A stretch of DNA of 64,000 nucleotides, from the NCBI GenBank assembly GCA_014138725.1, contig JACJID010000002.1:1192001-1256000 (forward strand), given 5' to 3'. Positions within the stretch are counted from its first letter, which is position 1. Each line of letters begins with the position of its first letter. Positions 34,177 through 55,024 of the stretch are shown in pieces. The position numbers and the translations under genes are program-made. The notes beneath the pieces are model-generated. The model made no database searches. It worked only from the letters and a program-made list of their open reading frames with translations, and was not told the origin of the DNA. The DNA comes from Kutzneria viridogrisea (GTDB taxonomy: Bacteria; Actinomycetota; Actinomycetes; Mycobacteriales; Pseudonocardiaceae).

Positions 34177-34393
34177 GGGTCGTGGTACTCCTCAGGCTCT
34201 CGTGCTCCGGGTGAGCTGGCCGAACCCGAGTGGGGACACACCGGGCCGAAGCTCTGGTTTCAGGACGCCACGGCACAGCGAGAGGGACCGGCAATGGCGG
34301 ACAGCCGACAATTGTGCCAGACGCGCCCCACCCACGGCCAATCACCCACCCCGCCCCCGCGTCTTCGCGCCGGTCTCTGGACCGCGGGCCCAC

Positions 34394-34420
34394 GATGATC
34401 ACATCTGTCCAGTGATCATC
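34394..34420. other. Inverted repeat GATGATCAC upstream of rpsP
   Basis: Nine-base arms at 34394-34402 and 34412-34420 flank nine bases. It lies about 220 bp upstream of the rpsP start, an AT-richer patch in CG-rich DNA, so an operator or a factor-independent terminator for antisense transcription is possible. Confidence 0.4.
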
Positions 34421-34673
34421 ATGGGACAAGGGAAGAGACCGGACCAGAGCGAAGACGCCGCGATCCGGAGGAGCGCCAAGAGCGAAGCGGGCACAGCCGT
34501 CCCCAGCCGACGCCCAAACCCGCTCGCGTCGCCGCATCAGTCCAGCGGGCGACGCGAGCACCCCGCCAACACACCACACCGCAAGCGCCGACACACCGAA
34601 CCCGAACGTCCAACACGCGGCGCACGAAGCGCCGACACGCGGCCCCGGAACGTCCGACACGCGCAGCCAACCC

Positions 34674-34722
34674 GGGACTCGCGCTCCCCAGAGCGGGACT
34701 CACGCCCCTGTGAACGGGACTC
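34674..34722. repeat. 21-bp-pitch GGGACTC repeat array C (three units)
   Basis: The core GGGACTC starts at 34674, 34695 and 34716, exactly 21 bp apart, each preceded by CC, GC or AC and followed by variable bases. The last core ends six bases before the stop codon of the CPBP gene (34729-34731). The 22 bases at 34680-34701 are identical to the reverse complement of 54770-54791 in array B. Confidence 0.8.
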
Positions 34723-41939: not shown

Positions 41940-43615
<1,676 letters not shown>

Positions 43616-43665
43616 ATCGTCCTCCCGTGCGGGTACGGCGTTGCAGGGAAGAGTGGCCACCCGCT

Positions 43666-43735
43666 GTTTCACCGGCCCGCGTGCGAGGTTTCGCCCGCGT
43701 GAACTGTGCCGCCCCGAGTGTTACGAGCGAGTTTC
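43666..43735 (-). promoter_or_regulatory. GlnR-like binding region upstream of amtB
   Basis: Read on the minus strand, GAAAC (43731-43735) is followed 11 bp later by GTAAC (43720-43724). Further on come TTCAC (43699-43703), GAAAC (43688-43692) and another GAAAC 22 bp on (43666-43670). The known GlnR box is gTnAC-n6-GaAAC, repeated with 11-bp steps; four of the five words fit it. GlnR control of amtB-glnK-glnD is established in Streptomyces and mycobacteria. Confidence 0.7.
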
Positions 43736-43808
43736 CCGCCCGCCAGTCGAACCGGGCCGCTCACCCAGCGTCGCCGACCGGATCGCCCGAGCGAGTGCAC
43801 AACCCCGC

Positions 43809-43980
43809 GAGCCCCGCTCACAGGCGCGCGAGTCCCGCTCTGGCGGGAACGAGGTGCGGCGGCTGGGCGGGACTCGCGGGCACCAGAGCGGGACTCAGGG
43901 TCCTCAGGGCGGGACTCGGCTGCGGCTGGGCGGGACTCGGGGTCCCCAGAACGGGACTCGCGGGCACCAGGACGGGACTC
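43809..43980. repeat. 21-bp-pitch GGGACTC repeat array A
   Basis: Six exact GGGACTC cores start at 43869, 43890, 43911, 43932, 43953 and 43974, each 21 bp apart and preceded by RC. Upstream are two units in the opposite orientation at 43809 (GAGCCCC) and 43830 (GAGTCCC), also 21 bp apart. The units at 43869 and 43953 agree in 19 of 21 bases. A perfect 14-bp inverted repeat joins 43830-43843 with 43883-43896. The last core ends six bases before the stop codon of the symporter (43987-43989). Confidence 0.85.
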
Positions 43981-43986
43981 ACGGGG

Positions 43987-45468
43987 TCAGCGGGCGGCGA
44001 CCGGCTCGGGGGGCAGGCCGCGGACGGCTTCCTTGCGGCGGGTGGCCAGGGTCACCGCACCCAGCACGAGCAGGTTCACCAGCAGCGCGACCACGCCCAC
44101 GTTGAGGTCCTTGACGGGCTGGGGCAGGCCGGGGGCCAAGCCGCCCACGGTGACCCCGGTGAGGGTCAGCACGGCGACGACGGCGACCCCGGCGAGGATG
44201 CCGCAGGCGGCGCCGGAGGTGGTGACGAGCCTGCGCTTGGCGAGGCTGAGCAGCAGCGCGGGGAACAACTGGGTCACCAGCGAGTAGCCCATCAGCAGCA
44301 GGGACACGATCGTGTCGCCGCCGTTGAACGTGAAGTACAGGGCGATCAGGGCGACGACCGGCACGAGCGCCTTGGCCAGCAGCCCGGTCCGGGCCTCGCT
44401 GGTGGCCGGGCGCACCACCCGGTACAGGTTCTTGGCGAGCATCGTGGCGGAGCTCATCAGGATCAGCGAACCGGGCACCAGCGCGGTGAGCACCCCGGCA
44501 CCGCCGACCACGCCGACGAACCACGGGTCGAAGGTCTTGGTGGTGATGCGCAGCAGGGACAGGTCCCCGTCGCTGCCCTTGAGCCCGGGCACGACGAGCA
44601 CGGCGGTGAAGCCGACGAAGAACACGAAGAGCAGGATCAACTGGTACAGCGGCAGCACGATCGCGTTGCGGCGGAAGACCCGCTCGTCGCGGGCGGTGTA
44701 GGCGGCCGTGAAGGAGTGCGGCCACATGTAGAAGCCCATCGCCGACAGCAGCACGGTGGAGACGAACCAGGTCGGGCTCATGCCGCTGTCGGGCAGCGTG
44801 AGGAAACCGGGCTTGGCGGCCTCGACCGCGCGGAACATCGGTGCGATGCCGCCGAAGTAGTGCCAGGGCAGGTAGATGCCCAGTGCCAGCACGACAACCA
44901 GGATCAGCCCGTCCTTGAGCACCGAGGTCCAGGCCGAACCGTGCACCCCGGAGACCGTCACGTACACGGCGAGCACGAGCGTGCCGAGGATGATCGCCCA
45001 CGCGTACGGGATGGCCTGCCCGGACACCTCGGACACGATGATGCCCAGGCCCTTGAGCTGGAGCACCAGGTACGGCACCAGCGCCGCGACCCCGACTAGC
45101 GCGACCAGTGCGCCCAGCAGCGGGCTGTCGAACTTGGCGGCGAAGAAGTCGGACTGGGAGTGCAGCCCGCGGCGCTTGGCGAAGCGCCAGATCGCGGGCA
45201 GCAGCCAGTACGAGGCGGTGAAGGCGATCGAGCCGTAGCAGAGGATGTAGAAGGCGGGGCCGCCCTTGCCGTAGGCCCAGCCGGATCCGCCCAGGAAGGT
45301 GAACGTCGTGTAGATCTCGCCCGCCATGAGCAGGAACACGAATGCGCTGCCGAATCCGCGCCCGCCGACGGTCCACTGCTCCAGGTCCATGTCCCGGCCC
45401 CGCCTGGCGCGGATACCGAGCACCAGTGCGATCAGCACGAAGCCGAGGACGACCAGCAGCGCGGTCAC
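43987..45468 (-). CDS. Sodium:solute symporter, monocarboxylate-type (MctP-like)
   Basis: This 493-residue protein has about 13 transmembrane segments of the SSS family, with EQWTVGGRGFGSAFVFLLMAGE near the N-terminus and GFYMWPHSFTAAYTAR in the middle, a segment seen in MctP-type monocarboxylate carriers. It overlaps the preceding DUF3311 gene by four bases; this small-protein/SSS pair is a recurring module. Acetate, lactate or pyruvate uptake is plausible. A palindrome lies upstream of the pair and a repeat array directly follows the stop. Confidence 0.87.
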   Translation of the reverse strand: MTALLVVLGFVLIALVLGIRARRGRDMDLEQWTVGGRGFGSAFVFLLMAGEIYTTFTFLGGSGWAYGKGGPAFYILCYGSIAFTASYWLLPAIWRFAKRRGLHSQSDFFAAKFDSPLLGALVALVGVAALVPYLVLQLKGLGIIVSEVSGQAIPYAWAIILGTLVLAVYVTVSGVHGSAWTSVLKDGLILVVVLALGIYLPWHYFGGIAPMFRAVEAAKPGFLTLPDSGMSPTWFVSTVLLSAMGFYMWPHSFTAAYTARDERVFRRNAIVLPLYQLILLFVFFVGFTAVLVVPGLKGSDGDLSLLRITTKTFDPWFVGVVGGAGVLTALVPGSLILMSSATMLAKNLYRVVRPATSEARTGLLAKALVPVVALIALYFTFNGGDTIVSLLLMGYSLVTQLFPALLLSLAKRRLVTTSGAACGILAGVAVVAVLTLTGVTVGGLAPGLPQPVKDLNVGVVALLVNLLVLGAVTLATRRKEAVRGLPPEPVAAR

Positions 45469-45803: not shown

Positions 45804-47225
45804 TCAGCCCAGCAGCGCGTCCACGAAGGCGCCGGGCTCGAAGGGCGCCAGGTCGTCGGCGCCCTCGCCAAGGCCAACCAGCTTGACCGGCACGCCCAGT
45901 TCGCGCTGCACCTGGAAGACGATGCCGCCCTTGGCCGTGCCGTCCAGCTTGGTGAGCACGATGCCGGTCACGTCCACCACCTCGCCGAACACCCTGGCCT
46001 GGGTCAGCCCGTTCTGGCCGGTGGTGGCGTCGAGCACCAGCAGCACCTCGTCCACCTCGGCCTGCTTCTCCACCACCCGCTTGACCTTGCCCAGCTCGTC
46101 CATCAGGCCGGTCTTGGTGTGCAGCCGCCCCGCGGTGTCCACCAGCACGGCGTCCACCTTGGCCTCGACTCCCCGCTTGACGGCGTCGAACGCGACCGCG
46201 GCCGGATCGGCGCCCTCCTTGCCGCGCACGACCTCGGCGCCGACCCGCTCGGCCCAGGTGGCCAGCTGGTCGGCCGCAGCGGCACGGAACGTGTCGGCGG
46301 CACCCAGCAGCACGGTGCGCCCGTCGGCCACCAGCACGCGGGCCAGCTTGCCGGTGGTGGTGGTCTTGCCGGTGCCGTTCACGCCGACCACCAGCAGCAC
46401 GGCCGGGTTGCCGTTGTTGGGCAGGGCCCGCACCGACCGGGTCATCTCCGGGTGCAGGGACTCGATCAGCACCTCGCGCAGCAGGGCGCGGACCTCGGCG
46501 GCGCTGCGCACACCGCGGGAGACCAGCCGCTCGCGCAGCTTGTCCACGATCTCGGTGGTGGTGGCCGCGCCGATGTCGGCCATCAGCAGCGTGTCCTCGA
46601 TGTCGGTCCAGGAGTCCTCGTCCAGGTTGCCCGCGCCGAGCAGCCCGAGCAGGCCCTTGCCCAGGGTGGACTGCGAGCGGGACAGCTTGCCGCGCAGCCG
46701 CTCCAGGCGCCCCTCGGTGGGCTCGATCTCCGGCTCGACTGGCTGGGCCGGGACCGGGGTGGTCGGCGGCTCCACCGGCACCGGCTGGGCGGGCACGGGG
46801 GTCGTCGGCGGCTCCACCGGCACCGGCTGGGCGGGCACGGGGGTCGTCGGCGGCTCCACCGGCTGCGCGGGCACCGGGGTGGTCGGCGGCTCGACCCGCT
46901 CGGGCAGGTCGACGTCCACGATCGTGCGCCGCTCGGAGTCGCGCGGCACCGAGGCGTCGTCACCGACCCCGGGCTGGCCGTCGACCTCGGTGCGCTCGGC
47001 CACCGGGTGCTCGACCGGCGGTGGCGCCACGGCCGTGCCGCCCCCCGCGGCCAGGTCGAAGCCCTTGGCGGCCTGGTAGCCGCCGTCCTTGGGCCGCTGC
47101 TGCTCCTCGCGCTCGGTCAGGCTGATCCGCCGCTTGCGGGCGAGCACCAGCCCGACCACCAGCGCGACGGCCAACACGAGGAGGACGGCGACGCCGATCC
47201 AGATCAAGGCAGTGGACTCAAGCAC
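45804..47225 (-). CDS. ftsY: Signal recognition particle receptor FtsY
   Basis: This 473-residue SRP receptor has an N-terminal membrane anchor (STALIWIGVAVLLVLAVALVV). A low-complexity linker of about 110 residues contains four copies of a VEPPTTPVPAQPV unit. The NG GTPase domain follows, with GVNGTGKTT near 283, DTAGRLHTK and TKLDGTAKGG. The anchor is unusual compared with E. coli FtsY but typical for actinobacteria. The GTG at 47225 has GAGGATG upstream. It corresponds to Rv2921c next to smc. Confidence 0.95.
   Translation of the reverse strand: MLESTALIWIGVAVLLVLAVALVVGLVLARKRRISLTEREEQQRPKDGGYQAAKGFDLAAGGGTAVAPPPVEHPVAERTEVDGQPGVGDDASVPRDSERRTIVDVDLPERVEPPTTPVPAQPVEPPTTPVPAQPVPVEPPTTPVPAQPVPVEPPTTPVPAQPVEPEIEPTEGRLERLRGKLSRSQSTLGKGLLGLLGAGNLDEDSWTDIEDTLLMADIGAATTTEIVDKLRERLVSRGVRSAAEVRALLREVLIESLHPEMTRSVRALPNNGNPAVLLVVGVNGTGKTTTTGKLARVLVADGRTVLLGAADTFRAAAADQLATWAERVGAEVVRGKEGADPAAVAFDAVKRGVEAKVDAVLVDTAGRLHTKTGLMDELGKVKRVVEKQAEVDEVLLVLDATTGQNGLTQARVFGEVVDVTGIVLTKLDGTAKGGIVFQVQRELGVPVKLVGLGEGADDLAPFEPGAFVDALLG
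46741..46892. repeat. 45-bp tandem repeats in the ftsY linker
   Basis: A 15-codon unit (VEPPTTPVPAQPVPV) is present in two nearly identical full copies with two shorter flanking copies. The DNA copies are close to identical, so the tract is likely to vary in length between strains by slippage or unequal crossing-over. Confidence 0.8.
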
Positions 47226-47358
47226 CCGGTCATCCTCGCATCTGGCCACCCGGGGCTCACGCCGAGCACCGTCGACAACAAACGCGAAAGTCGGCGATTC
47301 GGTAAAAGTTCCACATCACATCTTGCGGCAGCCCTGCCAGTGGCATAGACCACATGCC

Positions 47359-54769: not shown

Positions 54770-55024
54770 GAGTCCCGCTCTGGGGAGCGCGAATCCCGTT
54801 CTGCGGACGCTGAGTCCCGCCCACCCGGTGAGCTGAGCCCTGCGCGGGTGAGGGAGCACGGGCGGTGAGCGGAGGTCACGCGCGGGAGAGCGGGATTCGC
54901 GTGCCGGTGGGCGGGACTCGGCTGCGGGAGAACGGGACTCAGCTGCGGCTGAGCGAGACTCGGCCGCAGCTGGACGGGACTCACATGCCGGTGGGCGGGA
55001 CTCGCGCGCGGGAGAGCGGGACTC
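54770..55024. repeat. 21-bp-pitch GGGACTC repeat array B
   Basis: Forward cores start at 54892 (GGGATTC), 54913, 54934, 54955 (GAGACTC), 54976, 54997 and 55018, all 21 bp apart; five are exact GGGACTC. Reverse units GAGTCCC, GAATCCC and GAGTCCC start at 54770, 54791 and 54812, also 21 bp apart. The 80 bp between the two sets hold only degenerate copies. The last core ends nine bases before the stop codon of smc (55034-55036). The segment 54770-54791 is the exact reverse complement of 34680-34701 in array C. Confidence 0.85.

Follow-up and report, generated by a model that had tools for sequence, protein, structure and literature searches.

What holds a seven-base word in exact register behind the stop codon of a symporter gene is the question raised by positions 43801-43986 of the window, the whole 64,000-nucleotide stretch of Kutzneria viridogrisea DNA analysed here. 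The main arm of this element carries six exact GGGACTC cores on the plus strand, starting at 43869, 43890, 43911, 43932, 43953 and 43974, at a pitch of 21 bp with zero slips, exactly as the original prediction had described them. Among 200 dinucleotide-shuffled versions of the window, the longest 21-bp run had two cores, reached in 2 of 200, as against the observed run of six. The linkers were correctly described as variable, and their length at 43869-43980 is 14 nt, where 12-14 bases had been given. Of the two opposed units said to face this arm, also 21 bp apart, the register was confirmed and one core is exact (43830-43836, the single exact GGGACTC of the minus strand), whereas the outer one (43809-43815, GAGCCCC) has one mismatch. 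The perfect complementarity claimed between 43830-43843 and 43883-43896 holds over all 14 nt, and the outer arms, 43802-43843 and 43946-43987, reach 76% complementarity with linkers included. The element abuts the symporter stop codon beyond which it had been placed. Table 1 collects the coordinates.

Table 1. The element, its neighbouring genes and the further repeat sites of the window.
Feature	Positions	Strand	Remarks
Whole lineage-specific insert	43801..43986	.	ends ACCCCGCGAG... and ...CTCACGGGG; borders +/- few bases; no counterpart in G019, G126
Opposed arm, two units, 21-bp pitch	43809..43836	-	43809-43815 one mismatch, 43830-43836 exact
Spacer separating both arms	43844..43868	.	
Main arm, six GGGACTC cores	43869..43980	+	
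Terminus ACGGGG, from last core to symporter stop codon	43981..43986	.	
MctP-like monocarboxylate/solute symporter gene	43987..45468	-	stop codon abuts element; NCBIfam NF046076, E 2.5e-68
Ammonium transporter gene (amt), downstream	42275..43615	-	PF00909, E 2.4e-129
Second 21-bp family site, 3 units	34674..34722	+	6 bp off stop codon of Rce1-like (PF02517) gene
Left arm of third site (3 units, of which 2 exact)	54770..54818	-	11 bp behind a + gene
Right arm of third site (7 units, of which 5 exact)	54892..55024	+	9 bp behind SMC gene stop codon
Second-family copy, 22-bp pitch, core GTGTCGG / CCGACAC	34603..34663	.	adjoins second site 34674..34722

The NF046076 score of the symporter lies under the curated cut-off of that family, and a profile search gave no Pfam match for it. 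The nearest named Amt relatives come from Lentzea (80%) and Kibdelosporangium (78%). The window holds ten 21-bp GGGACTC pairs, and the family has two more sites in it, at 34674-34722 and 54770-55024. A search with Rfam at gathering thresholds gave zero matches in the window, no sigma-70-type promoter was found at 43600-44010, and no similar DNA of plasmid origin was present among 72,556 plasmid records at E 0.01. In the long ORF 45804-47249 (-), which by eye resembles an FtsY-like GTPase with a proline-rich linker, there is a separate 42-bp tandem repeat at 46741-46863 (2.9 copies, 95% match).

A search of the complete genome for such pairs and for their clustering between genes had been suggested. 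The 10.25-Mb assembly (11 contigs) contains 1069 GGGACTC-N14-GGGACTC pairs (574 + 495), and the reversed-pattern control gave 0 over the whole genome. When gaps of 8-20 nt were allowed, the number of exact-core pairs rose only to 1107 (591 + 516), so that 96.6% of such neighbours stand at the 21-bp pitch. In the 464 kb around the window, taken unselected, the array call found 27, against zero once the sequence was reversed. The longest array noted in the genome has 24 units (C1:400693-401182) and contains a repeated 84-bp block. Equal frequency of the spaced words in coding or shuffled DNA, named beforehand as the observation that would speak against a real array, was checked in part and not found: all but one of the 27 arrays stand outside predicted genes, and shuffles of the window fail to reproduce the array.

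The placement of these arrays relative to genes is uneven. By the gene calls of our own codon-score finder, a non-standard annotator run with no benchmark, 26 of the 27 arrays fall outside predicted genes, in DNA that is 87.6% predicted coding. The 19 gaps that hold them comprise 13 convergent, 6 codirectional and 0 divergent ones; occupancy is 13/36 for convergent gaps, 6/116 for -/- gaps, 0/53 for +/+ gaps and 0/57 for divergent gaps, and the excess in convergent gaps over all others (13/36 versus 6/226) has a Fisher p of 1e-8. A larger set of 864 kb, made of the unselected 464 kb and of 400 kb from array-listed places, mostly chosen for their arrays, gave 65 arrays, with 27 in convergent and 30 in codirectional gaps, 5 in divergent gaps and 3 inside predicted genes. 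On the mRNA strand relative to the nearest stop codon, these arrays read GAGTCCC in 41 cases and GGGACTC in 16 (binomial p 0.001, with arrays that share one gap not being independent). For 13 of 64 arrays, a facing stop codon lies 4-12 bp from the array end. The array terminus is unlike the internal linkers, with G at +10 in 77% versus 17%. The element at 43801-43986 is thus very probably one copy of a dispersed, non-coding repeat family of gene 3' ends.

Other repeats were seen along the way. A second family, with a 22-bp pitch and the core GTGTCGG (CCGACAC), has 235 pairs in the same genome and 0 in five congeners; it often shares gaps with the 21-bp arrays, as at 34603-34663 and, outside the window, at window-relative 180032-180275 and 196746-196934, and by eye the two may be related in sequence. 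The listed places of both families are absent from about 0.84 Mb of one contig (G000:C1 ~463000-1300000) and present on both sides of it; a single 20-kb sample from this stretch (L141) has a GC content of 0.678 and loosely packed genes. A structured intergenic element of ~150 bp (CGCGTCTTCGCGCCGGTCTCTGGACCGC ... AAGGGAAGAGACCGG) also occurs in several copies, with one at ~34355-34490, which has no Rfam match in the window, and three in tandem in a gap at window-relative 142805-143582, outside the window.

Comparison with related species, which had also been proposed, bears on the origin of the element. G019 and G126 belong to the same genus (glnD 88% and 86% identical) and keep the gene order at the locus, and their amt-symporter gaps measure 185 and 197 bp against 371 bp here. 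The alignment assigns the difference (~180 bp) to the element, immediately past the stop codon of the symporter gene. The extra block is therefore the element itself, without counterpart in the two congeners, which shows a gain as a block at 43801-43986, with loss in both congeners as the formal alternative. Other gaps agree with this: syntenic gaps with arrays in K. viridogrisea, six against G019 and five against G126, are longer by 5-568 bp, whereas those without arrays (93 and 97, respectively) have a median length difference of 0. Six congeners have 0-7 GGGACTC pairs at 21 bp each versus the 1069 found here, so arrays are no general feature of the genus.

The congeners do carry the family in a compact form, which shares its ends with the array copies. 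The pattern sought consisted of opposed ends 58-86 bp apart, CGAGTCCCGC ... GCGGGACTCG, and the copies listed are mostly 59-75 bp. It occurs 38 times in G019, 87 times in G126 (of which three were read), 13 times in G087, 19 in G142, 2 in G109, 0 in G057 and, by count alone, 29 times in K. viridogrisea; five genomes of other genera and the reversed control gave 0. Terminal inverted repeats are thus present in the compact copies, by the search pattern itself, and in the outer arms of 43801-43986. One G126 gap, in which an arm has two units at 21 bp and the opposite arm a single unit, is an intermediate form. Other long near-perfect palindromes were observed behind stop codons (GTGAGTGGCTCATGTGACC..., GGAAGGGGGCCTTCC... 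and CGTGAAGGTGGCTTTCACTGCG..., for example), in convergent gaps of G019 and G126 and in gaps of the K. viridogrisea genome at window-relative -134204 and 245767.

Beyond the genus, a GGGACTC pair is present in 53 of 200 genomes of the family and abundant in few. A looser pattern of three ACTCR words at 21 bp has matches in 93 of the 200, and at least 20 of them in 27 genomes from 11 genera, where reversed controls gave 0-27 matches (more than 10 in six genomes) and where arrays were actually read in part of the 27. In 245 genomes of the class outside the family, a stricter pattern of three ACTCGC words gave one match each in two. Related arrays do exist in other genera of the family: 20 array-chosen stretches from six genomes of three of them contain 30 arrays, of which 14 are convergent, 13 codirectional, 2 divergent and 1 at a stretch end, with 0 inside predicted genes. 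Their unit consensus differs, being roughly CGTaACTCGCGtG, GTGGgACTCGCg and gggggACTCGCG. Among 80 named Amt loci, arrays of at least three units stand only at that of Amycolatopsis sp. GM8 (L058). The family is lineage-specific and patchy in the genus, and its extent is beyond what the window alone could show.

A hint of function comes from what is constant and what varies within the arrays. To avoid reading the core back from its own search, the 164 register units of the 864 kb that lie between two exact cores were taken regardless of their own core; 137 of them are exact and 159 are within one mismatch. The information content is 1.6-1.9 bits per base across CGGGACTC and falls to ~1.3 in the two bases that follow, so that it is high throughout C-GGGACTC-R-C; a C at +12 is also informative. 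An A or T occupies position -5 in 95% of these units, in DNA of 70% GC. Linkers of different loci, in contrast, have an identity of 0.560 versus 0.554 expected from column composition, and a score of 22/28 is reached in 69 of 6080 comparisons of two linkers each, some of which may belong to one array. At such random-draw similarity, the linkers give no sign of ancestry shared between loci beyond the consensus. Indels between cores are rare. The argument needs linkers saturated with substitutions and almost without indels; at the usual ratio of the two, this would imply either constraint on core and pitch or exchange of units in register only. Arrays also bear marks of multi-unit duplication, with an identity of 0.71 at lag 4, or 0.64 when the 24-unit array is set aside. 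A core and a 21-bp spacing that are kept while the linkers change are hints, at the level of sequence, that core and pitch may be read by a putative protein, and they lend indirect weight to the binding platform named in the original prediction.

On this basis, each 21-bp unit would be a C-GGGACTC-R-C site for a putative sequence-specific DNA-binding protein. The exact two-turn spacing would place the sites on one face of the helix and so allow cooperative binding, and a bound array placed past a stop codon and ahead of the following gene could act as a barrier, most simply as a roadblock that ends transcription. We infer this role of phased sites as a barrier tentatively, at a probability somewhat short of even, with the binding, the barrier and the protein itself all putative. 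The family count, the placement, the block gain, the core constraint, the kept pitch, the one-sided arrays and linkers without covariation support it. It is weakened by the strong fold of 43801-43986 and its arm complementarity, by covariation near the loop of compact copies, by near-perfect hairpins elsewhere (L212), by the few pairs in congeners, and by in-register unit exchange, which could also keep the pitch. A hairpin terminator and a selfish repeat are close rivals of this reading.

The first of these rivals, which we regard as possible and on the doubtful side, is that the element works in RNA as a hairpin terminator or 3'-end stabiliser, with the ends of the element pairing in the mRNA into a stem free of U-runs and the tandem units arising as by-products of arm growth. 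Its location, right after stop codons and within convergent gaps, is a known place of stem-loops, according to excerpts of PMC1590033 and PMC8355165. The mRNA strand of 43801-43986 folds from the stop codon on with its ends paired (-104 kcal/mol, z -5.7), four of the compact copies in congeners take up convergent gaps with near-perfect hairpins of -67 to -92 kcal/mol, and at L212 (G182) the whole 284-bp convergent gap is a single giant hairpin of seven units facing seven (-206 kcal/mol). Post-stop stems, compared to see whether arrays stand in for other hairpins, are slightly stronger with arrays, at borderline significance (median 9 in 25 genes with arrays versus 7 in 175 without, p 0.055). 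Against this, a scan of 43600-44010 for terminators with a T-run gave 0 terminator-like sites, a fixed 21-bp pitch is needless for an RNA stem, and 24 of 41 array gaps of the 864 kb are one-sided, in the sense that they lack any exact core of opposite orientation, a definition by which degenerate opposed arms can be missed; in 11 of the remaining gaps the cores face each other and in 6 they stand back to back. Linkers of opposed arms agree no more than chance predicts: in ten opposed array pairs, a set to which 43801-43986, with its one exact core on the left, does not belong, they match at 0.61 versus 0.63 at random.

Pairing in the compact form is mixed. The set consisted of 40 of the 41 listed 73-nt copies, one of another inner type being left out, as were listed copies of 59, 68, 70-72, 74-75 and 84-86 nt. 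Over whole arms the paired fraction is 0.78 versus 0.80 for independent columns. Pairs 11-15 avoid pairing (0.56 versus 0.72, a value as low in 0 of 2000 shuffles). The five pairs adjacent to the loop, by contrast, exceed arms dealt anew (0.615 versus 0.508, a value as high in 19 of 2000). The compact palindromes therefore look mainly like two opposed half-sites, with some pairing near the loop kept or copied. A hairpin inside each linker (GCTC/GAGC) was rejected, as the paired fraction among 158 distinct linkers exceeds expectation by no more than 0.03, or falls short of it, in all 16 listed column pairs. Hairpin formation is available at 43801-43986 but is no constant of the family, so the structured 3' UTR that had been suggested fits the position behind stop codons and the strong fold here, but not the 24 of 41 gaps that are one-sided.

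The second rival, rather unlikely in our judgement, is a selfish, non-autonomous repeat of MITE- or REP-like kind without host role, which inserts or is tolerated behind stop codons, is moved by a putative core-reading transposase and grows by slippage or unequal exchange. The block gain at the orthologous amt-symporter gap, the patchy occurrence in the genus, the 24-unit array with its repeated block and the distinct terminus are what such an element would leave, and a transposase binding site would equally explain the constrained core. Turnover points the same way. In G044 and G077, two strains with 95% protein identity, 7 of 8 syntenic array gaps are common, each way; the common gaps differ in length by at least 14 bp in 4 of 7, and most show two unit types in a similar order from the terminus inward (by eye). 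Where just one strain has an array, the gap is shorter in the other (127 versus 73 with flanks, and 182 versus 37), which shows array turnover between close strains. However, the Y1 transposase domain PF01797, the sole family sought, has 0 matches in the K. viridogrisea genome and one partial match across 18 genomes, with matches in 5 of 14 control genomes as positive control. An origin from REP/RAYT was rejected on that result. The random-draw similarity of linkers from different loci also means that most copies did not arise from one another by recent transposition, and that core and pitch would still be held by something; the selfish reading, through its transposase, likewise requires a core-reading protein. 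The relics of repeated hairpin duplication proposed earlier find a counterpart in the compact palindromes of congeners and in the multi-unit duplications of some arrays, but one core common to more than 1000 units genome-wide excludes a single local duplication event.

A wider form of the protein-binding reading would make the arrays a gene-end mark, in which phased tandem platforms with a word that drifts between lineages, a kept pitch and a kept ACTC heart are read by a putative co-evolving protein that blocks read-through or shapes chromosome organisation at gene 3' ends; in this full form we consider it distinctly unlikely. Two further explanations are contradicted by the data. Local regulation of the amt promoter, for instance by nitrogen-regulator boxes, would suit an array upstream of amt and is nevertheless highly improbable, given more than 1000 pairs genome-wide and congeners that keep amt and its near upstream region, partly alignable, without the array. 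Hardly any credence is left for a coding repeat of seven codons per 21 bp, since 26 of the 27 arrays fall outside the genes that the codon scores define; the ORFs spanning the array in all three plus-strand frames would suit it, but frames open in every phase are a feature of GC-rich DNA.

Small intergenic repeats are common in bacteria, and the element is filed among the interspersed ones; to our knowledge, none keeps an exact helical pitch over ~1000 cores with random-like linkers. BOX elements are built of boxA-boxB(n)-boxC modules with a repeatable middle module, and we know of no helical-pitch tandem units in BOX, RUP or SPRITE. In excerpts of PMC3049150 these pneumococcal repeats are dispersed, have extensive secondary structure and are judged parasitic; by description only, the likeness is that of a dispersed structured repeat. 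Excerpts of PMC2817692 and PMC3733652 describe REP/BIME elements as high-copy, intergenic, species-specific and located behind genes and in convergent gaps, with opposed copies that can form hairpins, GTAG REP ends that often supply stop codons, and reported protein binding. The 21-bp family is likewise high-copy, intergenic and behind genes, with opposed copies able to fold, and differs from what is described there in its fixed pitch and arrays of up to 24 units; in place of a short palindromic unit it has a directional 21-mer without pairing covariation in the 158 distinct linkers, and the cognate Y1/RAYT transposase is missing by the PF01797 search. Another parallel is the TAACTGA heptamer, which excerpts of PMC4679880 report as direct repeats at many intergenic loci, patchily, in Beggiatoaceae, Cyanobacteria and Bacteroidetes, absent from the shorter gaps of close relatives in some Bacteroidetes, with protein binding proposed. 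In both cases a single heptamer recurs as direct repeats across many places between genes, and some relatives with shorter gaps lack it there; the words differ, and TAACTGA stands, in its best-studied genome, mostly just upstream of start codons, with a proposed role in translation, whereas the 21-bp arrays stand behind stop codons. None of REP/BIME, BOX and TAACTGA is described with a two-turn pitch in these excerpts.

The exclusion of REP, CRISPR and known terminators in the original prediction can be kept for the most part. REP/RAYT features are lacking as set out above; CRISPR repeats are at least 20 bp long with unrelated spacers, in contrast to a core of 7-10 bp and 14-nt linkers that follow a consensus; and the T-run of a canonical intrinsic terminator is absent from 43600-44010. 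The exception is the U-less hairpin, since terminators of hairpins or hairpin clusters lie mostly within 80 nt behind stop codons and poly-U trails are not necessary, according to excerpts of PMC8355165. This copy does have a stable hairpin soon after a stop codon, a trait not universal in a family with so many one-sided gaps, and the conserved word, the fixed pitch and the many one-sided arrays set it apart from what is described there. Among the literature matches listed, a scope that leaves most subscription journals outside, there was no report of such repeats in Pseudonocardiaceae, and a word search on repeats in passages of two genome papers of the family (PMC3469384, PMC4210621) found no mention of them.

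Even if it is selfish, the repeat family is a clear case in which one kind of end serves both compact palindromes and phased arrays, and this in a genome that lacks the REP transposase domain. If a protein reads the arrays, a family of antibiotic producers would have a system acting at gene ends across the genome, and natural experiments on it are available in congeners, which have these ends in compact form but hardly any arrays, and in close strains with differences at common gaps.
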